Assembly: GCA_002163135.1 (NCBI GenBank)
Contig: MAAN01000011.1
Location: 186,001 to 250,000 of the forward strand
DNA length: 64,000 nucleotides
Reading direction: 5' to 3'
DNA from: Alphaproteobacteria bacterium 46_93_T64
GTDB lineage: Bacteria > Pseudomonadota > Alphaproteobacteria > Sneathiellales > Sneathiellaceae
The notes under the pieces were generated by a model. It ran no database searches. It saw only the letters and a program-made list of their open reading frames with translations, and was not told the origin of the DNA. The position numbers and the translations under genes were made by a program. Positions 31,966 through 38,202 of the stretch are shown here, piece after piece. How positions within the stretch are numbered: the first letter of the stretch is position 1; the number at the start of each line of letters is the position of its first letter.

Positions 31966-32439
31966 ATGAGAGAAATCGCGTCTATAATTGTCTTTGTTTG
32001 CCTTCTTGTTCCCTCGGCCTTTGCAGAGGGGATGAAAGGCACCGCCACTGTTCTAGATGCTGTGACCCTCCAAATTGGGGCGGCGAAGTTTCGCCTGCAG
32101 GGTATTGGTGCACCTAAGCCCGGTCAAATTTGCAAAAACAGAATTGGCAAGAACTATGATTGTGGGGCGATTGCCGCGACCGGCCTTATGGATCTAACCG
32201 CAGGCGCAGTGGTTGACTGCCGATATCTCGATAAAAACCTCACGCAGAAAAGTTGGGCACGCTGCTTTGCAGATGGCTATGATCTGTCAAAAGGCATGGT
32301 GTATACAGGATGGGCTCTTCCCTTGATTAAAGATGATCCTGCTTTTGCTTCAGTCTTGAACACGGCCAAAACCAAGAAGCACGGTCTTTGGGCAGGTACT
32401 TTTTCTTCACCCGTAAGCTGGTCTCACAACGCTCAATAG
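31966..32439 (+). CDS. exported thermonuclease-like (SNase-fold) protein
   Basis: 157 aa with a Sec signal peptide (EIASIIVFVCLLVPSAFAEG). The rest resembles the staphylococcal-nuclease-like fold of periplasmic thermonuclease-family proteins: GTATVLDAVTLQIGAAKFRLQGIGAPKPGQIC, CGAIAATGLMDLTAGAVVDCRY and the closing AKTKKHGLWAGTF. The Arg/Asp/Glu set of active SNase is only partly visible (D is replaced in the A-T-V-L-D-A motif region), so catalysis is doubtful. Four Cys could form disulfides. Monocistronic between rodA and the YeeE gene. Confidence 0.75.
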   Translation: MREIASIIVFVCLLVPSAFAEGMKGTATVLDAVTLQIGAAKFRLQGIGAPKPGQICKNRIGKNYDCGAIAATGLMDLTAGAVVDCRYLDKNLTQKSWARCFADGYDLSKGMVYTGWALPLIKDDPAFASVLNTAKTKKHGLWAGTFSSPVSWSHNAQ

Positions 32440-32525: not shown

Positions 32526-33704
32526 ATGAGAGTGAGCATATATACATCGGCAAGGTTCCCAGAATATAGAACCCTTATAGTGGTCGCAGTGTTGATCTCG
32601 ATTATCGGATCTCTCTTGTTGTCAAACATGAACATGGCTTGGATGTTTACAATTGCGCTTTTCATGGGCGTTTCTCTTTATCATGCTGCATTTGGTTTTA
32701 GCGCGGCTTATCGTCAGCTGTTCTTGCATAGACACGTCAAGGGAGCACAAAGCCATCTTATTCTAATTGGTATAACGACACTCCTGTTTGCCCCGTTTCT
32801 GGCGGAAGGATCTGCTTTTGGAAATCCAGTTGGCGGTGCAATCGCACCTGTGGGGATTGGAATGGCGTTCGGTGCCTTCATCTTTGGTGTTGGTATGCAA
32901 CTAGCTAATGCGTGCGCATCTGGGACGTTATATACAGCCGGGGGTGGGAACCCGAGAATGCTGATTGTACTGATTTTTTTCTGTGCGGGTGCATTCTGGG
33001 GAAGTCTTGACTTAAGCTGGTGGCAAGACCTTCCTGGATTTGGCGCCGTGTCGCTTGGTGAAAAATTCGGGTGGACAACAGCAGTATCACTCCAACTAAT
33101 ATTCTTGGCTGTCATTTTTGTGTTGTTGAGAGTGTTTAGCCAAAACGAAAAGATCGAAACAGATACTGATACGGATCAAACGCTAATGTCAAAACTGTTT
33201 CGCGGTCCCTGGCCGTTGGTTTGGGCGGTTCTCTCACTTGCTTTTTTAAATTGGTTAACGCTGATAAGCGCGGGGCACCCATGGTCAATTACATGGGGAT
33301 TTACACTTTGGGCTGGGAAATCCGCACTCCTTTTAGGCTGGGATCCAGCAACGAGCAGTTTTTGGTCCAGTGGTTTTCAACTAAACGCGCTCAGAGGTTC
33401 AATATTGGCAGATACAACATCTGTTATGAATATTGGAATTTTGGCTGGGGCTGCTCTTGCCTCTCTTGCTGTAAAACGTAAAACGGCAAGTTGGAGCGGG
33501 CGGAAATGGCGTTCAATGTTAGCAGCGATTATAGGCGGGCTATTGCTAGGGTACGGTGCACGGTTAGCTTATGGATGTAACATTGGCGCTTTTGTGAGTG
33601 GTGTGGCTTCCACAAGTTTACATGGATGGGTTTGGATAGTGTGCGCGCTTCCGGGAAACTGGATCGGCGTGAAACTAAGGCCATACTTTCATCTAACGAA
33701 TTAG
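32526..33704 (+). CDS. YeeE/YedE family sulfur-compound permease
   Basis: 392 aa inner-membrane protein with about ten hydrophobic segments and two YeeE/YedE halves. Each half carries the pore motif with a conserved Cys: GMQLANACASGTLYTAGGG (first) and GYGARLAYGCNIGAFVSGVAS (second). Homologues such as TsuA import thiosulfate; the same family is used for other sulfur or selenium species. GAGGAAC ribosome site precedes the ATG. It is the first gene of the locus that holds the Cys-rich repeat proteins, which suggests a sulfur demand or sulfur chemistry there (inference). The next gene starts 32 bp after its stop. Confidence 0.9.
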   Translation: MRVSIYTSARFPEYRTLIVVAVLISIIGSLLLSNMNMAWMFTIALFMGVSLYHAAFGFSAAYRQLFLHRHVKGAQSHLILIGITTLLFAPFLAEGSAFGNPVGGAIAPVGIGMAFGAFIFGVGMQLANACASGTLYTAGGGNPRMLIVLIFFCAGAFWGSLDLSWWQDLPGFGAVSLGEKFGWTTAVSLQLIFLAVIFVLLRVFSQNEKIETDTDTDQTLMSKLFRGPWPLVWAVLSLAFLNWLTLISAGHPWSITWGFTLWAGKSALLLGWDPATSSFWSSGFQLNALRGSILADTTSVMNIGILAGAALASLAVKRKTASWSGRKWRSMLAAIIGGLLLGYGARLAYGCNIGAFVSGVASTSLHGWVWIVCALPGNWIGVKLRPYFHLTN

Positions 33705-33736
33705 ATATTAGTAAAACAACGAAACAGGAGAGACCA

Positions 33737-34231
33737 ATGCGTAGTCAGTTAAAAATATCAAAGGCCCAGTATCTTTTAATTGCTGGTGGTGTGCTGGTCT
33801 CTAATCTATTAGGCAGTCAAGCTATAGCCGCGCCGACAATAATTGAGCTGGTTCAGGTGCCGTGCCAGTTTCTGGGAATAGAACAGGATCACGGATTTAC
33901 TTCACAGAAAAAGGCCGATTGTGAAGCGATAAACGAGAAAACAGCGGCTGAACGGCTTGAAAAATCAAAGGTGATGATGTTGAAGCCCGGCGAGTATATT
34001 TTTCGTGTGAGCAATAAAAACGTCCCTTATGAGCTTGGGTTTTGGCTTCGAGAAAAAGATTATAACTGGGCGAATCCAGTACACAAGCTGACAAAAACTA
34101 GTATTTCTGGCGGCGGAATGCATATGGGAAAAACAATAGAATATGAGGTAACGCTTAAACCTGGTGAGTATCTCTTTTCGTGCCCATTGAATACGACACC
34201 GGATTATAACCTTATCGTGTCTGATAGTTGA
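33737..34231 (+). CDS. exported cupredoxin-like protein
   Basis: 164 aa from the ATG at 33737, which has AGGAGAG upstream; the longer ORF from 33626 overlaps the permease and is unlikely. A signal peptide (YLLIAGGVLVSNLLGSQAIAA) is followed by a beta-rich domain with the repeated LKPGEYIFRVSNKN and LKPGEYLFSCPLNTTPDY patterns of cupredoxin folds. The Cys of FSCP fits a copper-ligand position, but the usual downstream His/Met pattern and the first His are not evident, so copper binding is uncertain; HM in GGGMHMGKT is another possible site. Same strand as, and close behind, the YeeE permease. Confidence 0.6.
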   Translation: MRSQLKISKAQYLLIAGGVLVSNLLGSQAIAAPTIIELVQVPCQFLGIEQDHGFTSQKKADCEAINEKTAAERLEKSKVMMLKPGEYIFRVSNKNVPYELGFWLREKDYNWANPVHKLTKTSISGGGMHMGKTIEYEVTLKPGEYLFSCPLNTTPDYNLIVSDS

Positions 34232-34239
34232 GCTTTGGG

Positions 34240-35097
34240 TTAATCTTCTCGAACGAGACGAAAACCGATTAGAATGTGTTTGAGGGCAGCAGGGCGACTG
34301 TGACGTGCCGCTGCCCGGCAAACACCGCATCCTTTGTCATCCCAAGAGCCCCCCTTTACAATGACACGGTCATTGCCTGCTACATTACGGGTCCATTCGA
34401 AAACCTGTCCCGCCGCATCCATCATCCCGTATGGGCTTTTGCCATTTGGAAAACCACCAACCGGCGTTGTGTCAAACGGACCAGCATCATGGCTATTGAG
34501 CTTCATTGCATCAAAACCGTTACCCCATGGAAAATACCGACCGTCAACACCTCGCGCTGCCTTTTCCCATTGTCTTTCAGTGGGGAGTAGCCACTGATTT
34601 CCAGTTCGCTTTGAAAGCCAATTCGCATAGGCTTTCGCATCAGTCTGCGATATCAGGACAACCGGATGATCCTTTCTACCTGCGGGTAGTGATCCTTTTT
34701 CCCAGAAAAATCTTTGAGTTCTTTCAAACGGATGTACAAGTCCATAGCTATGCCATGTTTCTGCCGTCACATAAGGTGCTACGTGGGCAGTCTCGCGAAT
34801 GAAAGCCGCATACTGATTATTGGTGACCAGATTTTCAGTAATGGAGAATGACGGCTCAAAAATTGTACGTCTTGGTATTTCGTTTTCATACCACCCACCA
34901 ACTCTTGTGCGATTATGGCCATAGGATTTTTCATCTAAACGATAACCATATTCGCGTTCAGTTTTATCCGAGCCTTGAATGAATTCTCCCGCAGGAATTT
35001 GGAGCAGTTTCGGGATTTCGTCGATTTTATCATCCGCATTAGCAATAGGTGCATACGCAATTAAGGCAATGATGAGTGTTGCGCTGATATTCGTCAC
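34240..35097 (-). CDS. exported SUMF1/formylglycine-generating-enzyme-like protein
   Basis: About 285 aa. The ORF track opens at a TTG (35115); the GTG at 35097 has AAGGA seven bases upstream and is preferred. Signal peptide ISATLIIALIAYAPIANA, then a complete FGE-sulfatase fold: LLQIPAGEFIQGSD, NQYAAFIRET, PVVLISQTDAKAYANWLSKRTG, LLPTERQWEKAARG, and VKGGSWDDKGCGVCRAAARHSRP...IGFRLVRED. Genuine FGEs have two copper-binding Cys in the last block; here one aligns (KGC), the other position appears to be Trp, and a second Cys sits three residues later, so activity as a classic FGE is uncertain. Convergent with the cupredoxin-like gene, divergent from the CNPC-repeat gene. Confidence 0.82.
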   Translation of the reverse strand: MTNISATLIIALIAYAPIANADDKIDEIPKLLQIPAGEFIQGSDKTEREYGYRLDEKSYGHNRTRVGGWYENEIPRRTIFEPSFSITENLVTNNQYAAFIRETAHVAPYVTAETWHSYGLVHPFERTQRFFWEKGSLPAGRKDHPVVLISQTDAKAYANWLSKRTGNQWLLPTERQWEKAARGVDGRYFPWGNGFDAMKLNSHDAGPFDTTPVGGFPNGKSPYGMMDAAGQVFEWTRNVAGNDRVIVKGGSWDDKGCGVCRAAARHSRPAALKHILIGFRLVRED

Positions 35098-35232
35098 TGA
35101 AATTTCCTTTTTCAAGGCGTCACAATTATTTGAAGCATCGTTATTAGAGAGTAGGGACTTGCTCTGCCATATTCAATTCAAGGGAACACGAAATCAAATG
35201 GAAAAACCATTTACTAGCAGGAGTCATTTAAA

Positions 35233-36453
35233 ATGCGTGCGTTTCGTCTTAAGCTCAAATACTCTACATTTATTCCAGTATTGTTTGGGGCAGGGATAGT
35301 TGTCGTCGGAAGTGCTGTCGCAGCAAACCAACCCAGCACACATCAAAATCTGACCCAGACAATTAATCCATCTGCTGTTTCAAAAACGAACCGAGTATCA
35401 GCGACTTTGGAGATTGTAGTTGCTGCAAACCCTTGCAATCCGTGTGCTGCGAAAAATCCATGCGCGGCAAAGAACCCTTGTAATCCATGCGCTGCTAAAA
35501 ACCCTTGTGCCGCAAAAAATCCATGTAATCCATGTGCCGCGAAAGCGGGAATTTCTTCAAAAAAATGCTTTATTCCACGTCTTCATGCTTCGATGAGCCG
35601 ATGTAACCCATGTGCAGCCAAAAACCCATGCGCTGCGAAGAATGCATGTAACCCATGCGCAGCTAAAAACCCATGCGCTGCGAAGAATGCATGTAACCCA
35701 TGCGCAGCTAAAAACCCATGCGCTGCGAAGAATGCATGTAACCCATGCGCAGCTAAAAACCCATGCGCTGCGAAGAATGCATGTAACCCATGTGCAGCTA
35801 AAAACCCGTGCGCTGCGAAGAATGCATGTAACCCATGTGCAGCTAAAAACCCATGCGTCGCAAAGAACCCATGTAATCCATGCGCCGTCAAGAACCCTTG
35901 TGCTGCCGCAAATCCGTGTAACCCCTGTAATCCGTGTGCTGCTGGTGAAGTTCCCGAACTCACTGCTGCTGAAGCGAGTGCTGCATATGATTGTTTGAAA
36001 GACAGCATGGCTGCTGGATATGCAAAGTCAGGTGTCTCTGAAATGGCGGATTATACAAGTTGGGTCAACGTAGCAACTAGCCCTTATCAGGCAGGTACCC
36101 ATGGTGACCGTTATGTAAATAATTGGATCAACGAAATTGGACTGGCGCGGTACCAGAAGTATGAAGAACTCGGCACGATGCCGGTAGGATCTGTCGTTGC
36201 AAAAGATAGTTTTTCTGTGAATAGCAAAGGCCAAACGTCTGCCGGACCAATGTTCTTGATGGAAAAAATGCGAGACGGTTTTGCTCCTGCGACAGGAAAC
36301 TGGCGCTATACAATGGTGATGCCGAATGGATCGGTATTCGGCCGTACGAATGGCAAGAATTCGGCTGCAATGGTATTTTGCTCGGACTGCCATCAAGCCG
36401 TTGCAGAAGATCAGGATCACTTGATGCTTCTACCTGATGAGAACCGTAAATAA
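35233..36453 (+). CDS. exported CNPC-repeat protein with cytochrome P460-like heme domain
   Basis: 406 aa; AGGAG nine bases before the ATG. Signal peptide to ~31, a polar segment ending LEIVVAA, then Cys-rich array 1 (~67-104, NPCNPCAAKNPCAAK), a 19-residue non-repeat insert (~105-123, AGISSKKCFIPRLHASMSR), and array 2 (~124-238) of seven 15-residue units CNPCAAKNPCAAKNA. The arrays carry 32 Cys. Residues ~240-406 resemble cytochrome P460 (TSWVNVATSPYQAGTHGDRYVNNW, GSVVAKDSFSV) and carry the c-heme motif CSDCH (383-387). Likely a periplasmic redox or metal-binding protein; function is unassigned. Divergent from the SUMF1-like gene and followed by a second CNPC protein. Confidence 0.85.
   Translation: MRAFRLKLKYSTFIPVLFGAGIVVVGSAVAANQPSTHQNLTQTINPSAVSKTNRVSATLEIVVAANPCNPCAAKNPCAAKNPCNPCAAKNPCAAKNPCNPCAAKAGISSKKCFIPRLHASMSRCNPCAAKNPCAAKNACNPCAAKNPCAAKNACNPCAAKNPCAAKNACNPCAAKNPCAAKNACNPCAAKNPCAAKNACNPCAAKNPCVAKNPCNPCAVKNPCAAANPCNPCNPCAAGEVPELTAAEASAAYDCLKDSMAAGYAKSGVSEMADYTSWVNVATSPYQAGTHGDRYVNNWINEIGLARYQKYEELGTMPVGSVVAKDSFSVNSKGQTSAGPMFLMEKMRDGFAPATGNWRYTMVMPNGSVFGRTNGKNSAAMVFCSDCHQAVAEDQDHLMLLPDENRK
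35602..35916 (+). repeat. seven 45-bp tandem coding repeats
   Basis: Units start at 35602, 35647, 35692, 35737, 35782, 35827 and 35872. The first five are nearly identical at the DNA level (TGTAACCCATGCGCAGC...), the last two diverge. Near-identity, including silent positions, points to recent expansion and possible copy-number change by slippage or recombination. Confidence 0.95.
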
Positions 36454-36547
36454 CGGCTCTTCTTGGACTTGGGAGCTCGGTTGAGTGCTCTCAAATCCTT
36501 CAATTTTCGACCCCAAATTTGAATAAATTACAACTAGGGAATATATT

Positions 36548-36838
36548 ATGCTTAAAAAATCACTTACAGCTACTGCTTTCGGTCTAACAATTCTATCCGC
36601 CGCAGCAATTGCTGCGGTTCCAGCGGCTCAGGCAGAACAAAGAGATGGGCAAATTGTAGTTGCTGCAGCTTGTAACCCTTGTGCAGCTAAGAAAAATGCC
36701 TGCAATCCTTGCAACCCATGTGCCGCAAAGAAAAAGAACGCATGTAATCCATGTGCTGCAAAGAACCCTTGTAATCCATGCGCTGCGAAGAACCCTTGCA
36801 ACCCATGTGCTGCAAAGAATCCATGTAAAGCCAGCTAA
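36548..36838 (+). CDS. small exported CNPC-repeat protein
   Basis: 96 aa. Signal peptide SLTATAFGLTILSAAAIAAVPAAQA, a short segment EQRDGQIVVAAA, then nothing but Cys-rich repeats: CNPCAAKKNACNPCNPCAAK and further CNPCAAKNP units, 12 Cys in all, ending CKAS. AGGGA ribosome site precedes the ATG. The IVVAA segment directly before the first Cys is shared with the larger repeat protein, like a common leader/core border. Codes no other domain, so it looks like a periplasmic metal-binding or modified peptide. Followed by a terminator-like inverted repeat. Confidence 0.8.
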   Translation: MLKKSLTATAFGLTILSAAAIAAVPAAQAEQRDGQIVVAAACNPCAAKKNACNPCNPCAAKKKNACNPCAAKNPCNPCAAKNPCNPCAAKNPCKAS

Positions 36839-36899
36839 TATCCAAGCTGGAAGAGAGCGCCTTTCTATGGTTTCATATGAAGGTGTTCCTTTGAATATG

Positions 36900-36939
36900 C
36901 GTCACGCGTAGTCTTTGGATTACACGTGACGTTTGTTTT
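36900..36939 (+). terminator. terminator after the CNPC-repeat genes
   Basis: CGTCACGCGTA and TACACGTGACG form an 11-bp stem with one mismatch and a 10-nt loop, followed by TTTGTTTTG. Fits termination of the repeat-protein transcript. Confidence 0.7.
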
Positions 36940-36961
36940 GACATAAGGAATGAGGCGACTA

Positions 36962-37669
36962 ATGCTGGATTGGGACAAGCTTTCACGGGAAGAAATGGAA
37001 GCAATGGCAGAAGCTGGGCATCAAGTGCTGAATTGCTACCGGGTTCTTACCAAGTCTGGGGATAATATTATCGGTGAAGTGCTTAAGGGACAGGGCACAT
37101 TTTACGAGATGGACCATTATCCACCCGGCGATATCTATGACCCGGAAAGCCATAGTCAGTATTACTATCACGCCCACCGAGGCGGAGAACACGGGCATTT
37201 TCACACGTTCCTTCGCTCTGAGGGCATGGAAGCGGAAATTAATCCTATCAAAGATCAGTCTGATCAAGATTACATGCAAGAGCGGGAAGATCAGATCTGC
37301 CATCTTGTCGCTATATCTATGGACAGCAAAGGGTTTCCGACAAGTCTCTTCACAACAAATCGCTGGGTTACTGCAGAAAACTGGTATAGCGCTGAAGGCG
37401 CAATAAAATGCCTTGATAGGTTCGAGATTGACCTTGTCCCACCTTCTTGGCCTGTAAATATCTGGCTTACGTCCATAATTCGTCTTTATCGCCCTATCAT
37501 CAAAAATCTCATTTTGGAGAGAGATTTAAAAATTGCGAGTTGGCAAACGAAATACCCTGACCGCGATGTGTTTGAGGATCGAGATCTCGAAGTTACTTCG
37601 GAAATTGCACTCTCTGTGGAAGAATACCTAAAGGAAATCGAAAGTCATCTGTTGAAAAAGAGAGCTTGA
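36962..37669 (+). CDS. DUF6969-like protein
   Basis: About 235 aa, no signal peptide or membrane segment. The middle is strongly patterned: EMDHYPPGDIYDPESHSQYYYHAHRGGEHGHFHTFLR, a His/Tyr-rich stretch that could bind metal; the C-terminal half is helical and ends VEEYLKEIESHLLKKRA. I recognise it as the family named DUF6969 from memory, not from a search. The ORF track starts at 36950, but GAGG lies better for the ATG at 36962. Downstream of the CNPC terminator; whether it belongs to that locus is inferred only from position and the His-rich motif. Confidence 0.7.
   Translation: MLDWDKLSREEMEAMAEAGHQVLNCYRVLTKSGDNIIGEVLKGQGTFYEMDHYPPGDIYDPESHSQYYYHAHRGGEHGHFHTFLRSEGMEAEINPIKDQSDQDYMQEREDQICHLVAISMDSKGFPTSLFTTNRWVTAENWYSAEGAIKCLDRFEIDLVPPSWPVNIWLTSIIRLYRPIIKNLILERDLKIASWQTKYPDRDVFEDRDLEVTSEIALSVEEYLKEIESHLLKKRA

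Positions 37670-38126: not shown

Positions 38127-38202
<76 letters not shown>

Follow-up and report, generated by a model that had tools for sequence, protein, structure and literature searches.

The stretch of DNA analysed here, 64,000 nucleotides from contig MAAN01000011.1 of Alphaproteobacteria bacterium 46_93_T64 (positions 186,001 to 250,000, forward strand), is referred to below as 'the window'. It contains a locus in which two exported proteins with CNPC repeats are encoded together with a YeeE/YedE-family permease, a cupredoxin-like protein, an FGE/SUMF1-like protein and a DUF6969 protein (Table 1). A preliminary description of this DNA had placed five genes between positions 32526 and 36838, and all five are present. 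Its counts of repeat cysteines were also confirmed (32, out of 36 cysteines in total, in the long CNPC protein, and 12 in the short one), and its emphasis on the repeats is supported in so far as they are what the recurrent loci share. Three parts had been overlooked: a cytochrome P460 domain with its haem motif, a conserved spacer in the array, and the DUF6969 gene. Signal peptides of the locus proteins were assessed by eye, and none was seen in the DUF6969 protein. The gene set recurs in many bacteria, and in our view it probably handles metals or thiols in the bacterial cell envelope, as a system that has so far gone unrecognised.

The long CNPC protein is not a repeat protein alone, as had been supposed. 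Its P460 domain was detected once the repeat was left out of the query, which then consisted of the last 170 residues. The match is above the cut-off and the domain contains the haem motif CSDCH; the long protein is thus a CNPC array carried on a cytochrome. The domain is present in a single copy in the genome, and all five species of the same genus that were checked for it have CNPC-P460 fusions. In the sequence alignment of the P460 domain, Lys88 and Lys109 are invariant; cross-linked cytochromes P460 that oxidise NH2OH are marked by a haem-crosslinking Lys and a distal carboxylate. Searches of the PDB with the domain and with its alignment profile returned chance matches and no P460 structure, and no relative of the domain was found in the plasmid collection.

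The composition of the arrays is extreme. Over 140 CNPC open reading frames (ORFs), they consist of Cys (24%), Ala (23%), Pro (18%), Asn (17%) and Lys (10%), while Asp, Glu, His and Met are nearly absent; 53% of the spacings between cysteines are of 3 residues and 30% of 6. The array of the window contains near-identical units of 45 bp. Most P460 fusions have an array that is broken once, by the spacer C-x-[VI]-P-R-L (CFIPRL in the window); in the relatives from the same genus C-x-V-P is kept, with Ser in place of Arg (for example, CVVPSV). Twin-arginine type signals or a lipobox were seen in some CNPC proteins (loci L085, L041, L115 and L111), hinting, from their sequences, at export in a folded state or at membrane anchoring.

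P460 is not the only haem domain found in this position. A second one, SoxA-TsdA_cyt-c (PF21342, E-values from 1e-7 to 2e-12), is surrounded or preceded by the array in Marinobacter, Hahella, Leucothrix, tubeworm symbionts and some Alphaproteobacteria, and DUF6969 adjoins these fusions again. They have a conserved cysteine within a [FI]C[ML]..M stretch. The exchange of the haem domain between two unrelated families suggests a redox function and not one fixed substrate. Several loci of the SoxA/TsdA type include a gene for an extracytoplasmic function (ECF) sigma factor, with an adjoining zf-HC2-like anti-sigma gene in Marinobacter and one tubeworm symbiont. In some gammaproteobacterial loci, a cytochrome c554-like multihaem gene is adjacent.

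The distribution of the repeats was investigated with a DNA pattern for CNPCAAKNP, which was found in 24 of 385 alphaproteobacterial genomes; the reversed control pattern gave 0. This strict pattern undercounts, since a looser one was positive in 5 of 56 apparent negatives. A scan of one genome per species yielded at least 119 stretches with CNPC arrays, each of 8 kb at most. They came from Alphaproteobacteria (Sneathiella, Pelagibius, Minwuia, Kordiimonadales, Hyphomicrobium), from Gammaproteobacteria (Marinobacter, Hahella, Leucothrix, Thioploca, tubeworm symbionts) and, beyond the Proteobacteria, from Acidobacteria, Methylomirabilota, Tectomicrobia and SAR324. Among the hosts of the gene set are many bacteria from the sea or from sulfidic habitats.

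Recurrent association of the gene families, singled out beforehand as the test of the locus, was found, so that the set of genes stands. The 119 CNPC loci listed contain DUF6969 (53 loci), a P460 domain (51), the FGE-like gene (34), YeeE (20) and the cupredoxin (19); by clustering, the corresponding figures were 52 for DUF6969, 32 for FGE, 18 for YeeE and 16 for the cupredoxin. DUF6969, the FGE-like gene, the cupredoxin and YeeE are thereby found next to CNPC arrays much more often than chance would give; for DUF6969, chance was put at roughly 0.4% per locus, at which fewer than one of these loci would be expected to contain it. Co-occurrence was then assessed at the genome level in 80 alphaproteobacterial genomes, 29 with CNPC and 51 without, the counts being uncorrected for phylogeny. 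The latter group derived from 56 genomes negative with the strict pattern, hand-picked from the 385-genome result before the families were searched, of which 51 remained after the looser pattern was applied. DUF6969 was encoded in 28/29 genomes with CNPC and 14/51 without, the FGE-like protein in 15/29 and 1/51, and the cupredoxin in 18/29 and 1/51. DUF6969 is thus the most constant partner of CNPC genes.

Table 1. Features of the CNPC locus and its immediate surroundings (positions in the window)
Feature	Position	Strand	Evidence or remark
SNase-like exported protein, recurrent minor neighbour	31966..32439	+	9-10 among the 119 CNPC loci listed
YeeE/YedE-family permease, 392 aa	32526..33704	+	PF04143 (Sulf_transp), E 3.4e-64
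EfeO-type cupredoxin-like protein, exported, 164 aa; Cys43, Cys62, Cys149	33737..34231	+	predicted fold, alignment
FGE/SUMF1-like protein, exported, 291 aa, TTG start	34240..35115	-	PF03781 (FGE-sulfatase), E 2.6e-40
CGVC motif (Cys263, Cys266) of the FGE-like protein	34318..34329	-	invariant in 28 locus relatives
Fusion of CNPC repeats and cytochrome P460, 406 aa, 36 Cys	35233..36453	+	
CNPC repeat array with 32 repeat Cys, most of them spaced by 3 or 6	35428..35943	+	
Spacer CFIPRL within the array (C-x-[VI]-P-R-L)	35566..35583	+	mid-array motif in most P460 fusions
Cytochrome P460 domain	36046..36417	+	PF16694, E 4.8e-8, 33.9 bits (cut-off 27)
Haem c motif CSDCH	36379..36393	+	Cys147, Cys150 and His151 of the domain invariant in the P460-domain alignment
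Small CNPC protein, exported, 96 aa, 12 Cys	36548..36838	+	relatives found
Terminator hairpin and U tail	36893..36938	+	-23.4 kcal/mol, z -5.7
DUF6969 protein, 239 aa, His-rich conserved core	36950..37669	+	PF22308, E 3.7e-83

The DUF6969 protein gave a confident model (pLDDT 93), and it has no sequence or fold relative in the PDB. Nine of its residues (H56, D61, D64, H74, H76, E80, H83, H85 and H118) are kept in 96 to 100% of 73 sequences, and judged by this conservation the set of His, Asp and Glu looks like a metal site. Several genomes without the strict CNPC pattern have DUF6969 beside other Cys-rich exported proteins, for example of CGGS or CAPK types (L208:4014-4304, HHHHH/CAPK; L210:6787-7173, CGGSHAGD; L213:6955-7374, CSPCAAAKCG). 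DUF6969 may therefore accompany Cys-rich export generally. It often adjoins a DUF2336-like protein, named by eye (loci L202, L203, L204, L206, L211 and L218-L220), and several of these loci encode a small cytochrome c as well, also where no CNPC gene is present at that spot.

The FGE domain had been recognised from the start, and it scores 139 bits (cut-off 23.3); its cysteines, however, are not spaced as in canonical FGE. The copper site of canonical FGE is a pair of cysteines, C-x4-C. At that spacing no catalytic Cu(I) pair is present in any of the 28 aligned members of the locus subfamily (mean column identity 63%), which share the invariant motif GGSWDDxGCGxCR.AARH.R, with CGxC in its place. 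On the alignment, one cysteine of the FGE copper pair may have a counterpart in the FGE-like protein while the other does not. In the two genomes that were compared, the locus copies carry the CGxC motif and the other readable FGE-domain paralogs do not. In comparisons with the locus protein, both ToxD and CalU17 outscored FGE. The FGE substrate motif CxPxR, which had been mentioned as the site of Cys oxidation by FGE, does not occur in the repeats (CNPCAAK); what comes nearest to it in the arrays is the spacer C-x-[VI]-P-R-L, present once. Nor is the C-x-[VI]-P spacer strictly tied to the FGE-like gene: 15 spacer-bearing P460 fusions have an FGE gene nearby and 23 do not, and SoxA-type fusions with FGE nearby have no such spacer.

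For the cupredoxin-like protein, the Pfam family Cupredoxin_1 was matched under its cut-off (E 0.0025), and the proposed fold was borne out by an AlphaFold2 model (pLDDT 88.5). EfeO gave the top two Foldseek matches (best 7wgu, E 1.8e-5), with a TM-score by query of only 0.44. The protein is accordingly described as EfeO-type; in its alignment the ligand loop reads SCPLN with no conserved His, and the type-1 His-Cys-His(-Met) ligand set is absent. The permease had been assigned to sulfur compounds. Its family is the right one and Cys130 and Cys351 are invariant in 15 locus relatives, but its scores against the NCBIfam equivalog models are far under the cut-offs (66 and 30 bits for the TsuA models, cut-offs 400 and 645; 123 bits for YedE/FdhT, cut-off 350) and do not identify it as TsuA or YedE/FdhT.

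The terminator that had been noted is real, and folding places a U tail, UUUGUUUU, after its hairpin; the consensus terminator scanner did not have the hairpin at 36893-36938 among its calls. It closes the pair formed by the P460-CNPC fusion and the small CNPC gene, and no comparable structure was found between the convergent cupredoxin and FGE-like genes. The FGE-like gene is divergent from the gene of the P460 fusion.

Other arrangements of CNPC genes were also encountered. A second locus type (L040, L047, L051, L093, L104, L144 and L177) combines a VTT (TVP38) membrane protein, a FAD disulfide oxidoreductase, a small CNPC protein and a histidine kinase, sometimes with a gamma-glutamyltranspeptidase too. 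The flavoprotein was tried as a mercuric reductase; this was dropped, as by eye it is without the C-terminal Cys pair of MerA and it can be named only as a member of the Pyr_redox family. In a metagenome-assembled genome (MAG) of Acidobacteria, the array lies inside a loop of a small membrane protein, with an FGE-domain gene adjoining (L086:6115-6870; L108 near 4917). In another group of MAGs (L033, L035 and L036), CNPC-P460 stands beside a DUF3179-like protein and a paralogous P460-like protein in which CxxCH has been lost, and two of these loci also have an ArsM-like methyltransferase with a Cys-rich tail. In the window itself, a tRNA-Lys gene (38127-38202) is followed from 38200 to 64000 by a gene run with few family matches: a metallophosphoesterase, a hydrolase of the metallo-beta-lactamase (MBL) fold, two WYL regulators, an AddAB-like UvrD/PD-(D/E)XK helicase-nuclease pair and several unknown proteins. 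This run may be an integrated island.

How could these parts work together? The explanation that we favour, with a probability of roughly 0.4, is that a thiolate polymer made by the locus and exported from the cell interior serves as a buffer for a soft metal, which is probably Cu(I), and that the fused haem acts as its redox partner. What the data show directly is the anatomy of the locus, the fusions, the conservation and the co-occurrence; we infer the metal, the redox role and the order of the steps, which would be as follows. The two CNPC proteins would be exported from the cytoplasm, where DUF6969, as a metalloprotein with a His/Asp/Glu core, might have matured or guarded the precursor. 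Repeat cysteines in the periplasm would bind the metal as thiolate clusters, and the haem c domain could accept electrons given up by Cu(I) or by thiols, or else undergo reaction with a small ligand. The FGE-like protein, also exported and having CGxC at the place of the FGE copper site, could handle copper on the repeats or oxidise cysteines of the repeats or spacer; the EfeO-type cupredoxin would be a soluble metal carrier, and the permease a source of reduced sulfur for proteins so rich in cysteine.

Several lines of evidence are consistent with this proposal. An array rich in Cys and nearly devoid of Asp, Glu, His and Met suits thiolate-only binding of soft metals. At the genome level, the genes for the FGE-like protein, the cupredoxin and DUF6969 go with CNPC, and two of the modules have links to copper or other metals through their families, which by analogy suggests a metal: the cupredoxin by its EfeO-type fold, and FGE as a Cu(I) enzyme (PMC12123546). 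The strongest outside support comes from bufferins, exported Cys-rich copper-chelating proteins for which rare natural Buf1|Cytochrom_C|FGE-sulfatase fusions and Buf1 loci with sigma factor genes are reported (PMC12452194). These have the same kinds of parts as CNPC loci, and by this likeness they point to a metal.

Other observations weigh against a copper buffer. Among the recurrent neighbours identified by locus clustering there was no gene for a copper ATPase, CopZ, CueR or the like, and the cupredoxin has no type-1 copper ligands. To our knowledge, a YeeE permease is not usual in copper systems. Since DUF6969 has no known fold relative, the role given to it is a guess. A more far-reaching version, which we put forward only tentatively, is that CNPC proteins are a new class of exported thiol polymer matured post-translationally. 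DUF6969 would then be a new cytoplasmic metalloenzyme that modifies or loads the cysteines of CNPC and related precursors, the exported CGxC protein would be another cuproenzyme that oxidises cysteines, and the haem domains fused to the arrays, whether P460 or SoxA/TsdA, would link the thiols to the respiratory chain.

A possible, if doubtful, alternative is the handling of sulfane sulfur, with CNPC cysteines accepting persulfide or S-thiosulfonate. The fused cytochrome would load them in the way that SoxY is loaded by SoxA, and sulfur would cross the membrane by means of the YeeE-like protein. The SoxA/TsdA nature of the second haem domain, with its conserved cysteine, argues for this, as do the recurrence of YeeE in 18 to 20 of the 119 loci listed, the thiosulfate or zero-valent sulfur carried by its family (PMC11582611), and the fact that several hosts are sulfur oxidisers or tubeworm symbionts. 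However, SoxY does not track CNPC (9/29 genomes with CNPC and 11/51 without, P = 0.25) and is absent from the window's own genome, and on these counts a link to Sox thiosulfate oxidation was rejected. Beside YeeE no TusA-like partner was noticed, sulfur chemistry is not known for P460 domains, and the FGE-like protein and the cupredoxin would be left unexplained.

We consider it improbable that the locus serves in defence against nitrosative stress or hydroxylamine, the P460 domain oxidising hydroxylamine or binding nitric oxide (NO) while the thiols of the repeats scavenge NO or reactive nitrogen. P460/c'-beta proteins do bind NO and some oxidise NH2OH, but such activity is not common to family members with differing pockets (PMC11928373). 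The c554-like multihaem gene of some gammaproteobacterial loci would fit. What would not fit is that Marinobacter, Hahella, tubeworm symbionts and others have this gene set with a SoxA/TsdA-type domain where P460 would stand.

Somewhat less credit still is given to a structural or redox-buffering material, a thiol/disulfide polymer in the envelope that would form by cross-linking of the repeats and lose its electrons to the haem domain. The high Cys content, the regular spacing and the fusion to cytochromes are in keeping with such a polymer, and so is the second locus type with its VTT protein, disulfide reductase, histidine kinase and, in several cases, gamma-glutamyltranspeptidase. Most CNPC proteins are small, however, and DUF6969, YeeE and the cupredoxin would be unaccounted for. 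Finally, that the repeat ORFs are functionless low-complexity expansions is hardly conceivable: near-identical 45-bp units show how readily copies expand, but the motif, the signals for export, the fusions to haem domains and the partner genes are the same across several phyla and a single spacer is preserved mid-array, a conservation that already contradicts this idea.

In the literature searched, which left subscription papers mostly outside, we found no mention of the repeat string or of DUF6969, nothing on P460 with Cys-rich repeats and no described system of such composition, as had been anticipated. With the CNPC loci, the small group of Cys-rich systems for export gains a gene set that is widespread and undescribed, and a genomic context is provided for DUF6969 and for a distinct FGE-like subfamily. 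The joining of haem c domains to long thiolate arrays suggests a chemistry that is so far undescribed. If the system buffers copper or another soft metal, such buffers would have evolved in bacteria more than once, using enzymes unrelated to each other; as a carrier of sulfur or of NO, it would be of a new, multi-site kind. Under either reading, the 96-aa protein is small enough for direct testing.

We would group the system with the exported proteins rich in Cys that deal with metals or thiols, although there is a fair chance of its being something more. Like metallothioneins, CNPC chains are short and Cys-rich with CxxC spacing; unlike them, they are exported and haem-fused and have no Pfam metallothionein match. 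The locus enzyme belongs to the FGE-sulfatase fold family of FGE (SUMF1) and differs from it by CGxC for C-x4-C and by repeats without CxPxR. The cupredoxin resembles that of EfeO, its best fold match, in having conserved cysteines near both ends of the fold, but it stands alone, without an imelysin domain, and has an extra invariant Cys62. With TsuA, SoxT and YedE/FdhT the permease shares the family PF04143 and conserved cysteines, though it falls under the TsuA and FdhT equivalog cut-offs. The C-terminal domain of the long protein is over the cut-off for the P460/c'-beta superfamily (PF16694) and has CxxCH near its end; what sets the protein apart is the N-terminal CNPC array. Likewise, the haem domain of gammaproteobacterial fusions is that of SoxA/TsdA cytochromes (PF21342), present here as a single domain within an array and not associated with Sox genes. 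The closest comparison is with bufferins and oxazolins, Cys-rich peptides that are ribosomally synthesised and modified by MNIO enzymes. CNPC proteins are likewise exported, Cys-rich and provided with Sec-type signals, and the ECF sigma and zf-HC2 genes of some loci recall Buf1 loci. On the other hand, MNIO (PF05114) had 0 matches in the whole genome of the window, no DUF2282/DUF2063 match was found in the locus, and neither whole CNPC protein had a Pfam match above cut-off; the CNPC system has instead its own repeats, its constant partner DUF6969 and its P460 or SoxA/TsdA haem fusion. As the host has no MNIO, the system would work like bufferins but with different enzymes, a likeness rather than membership.

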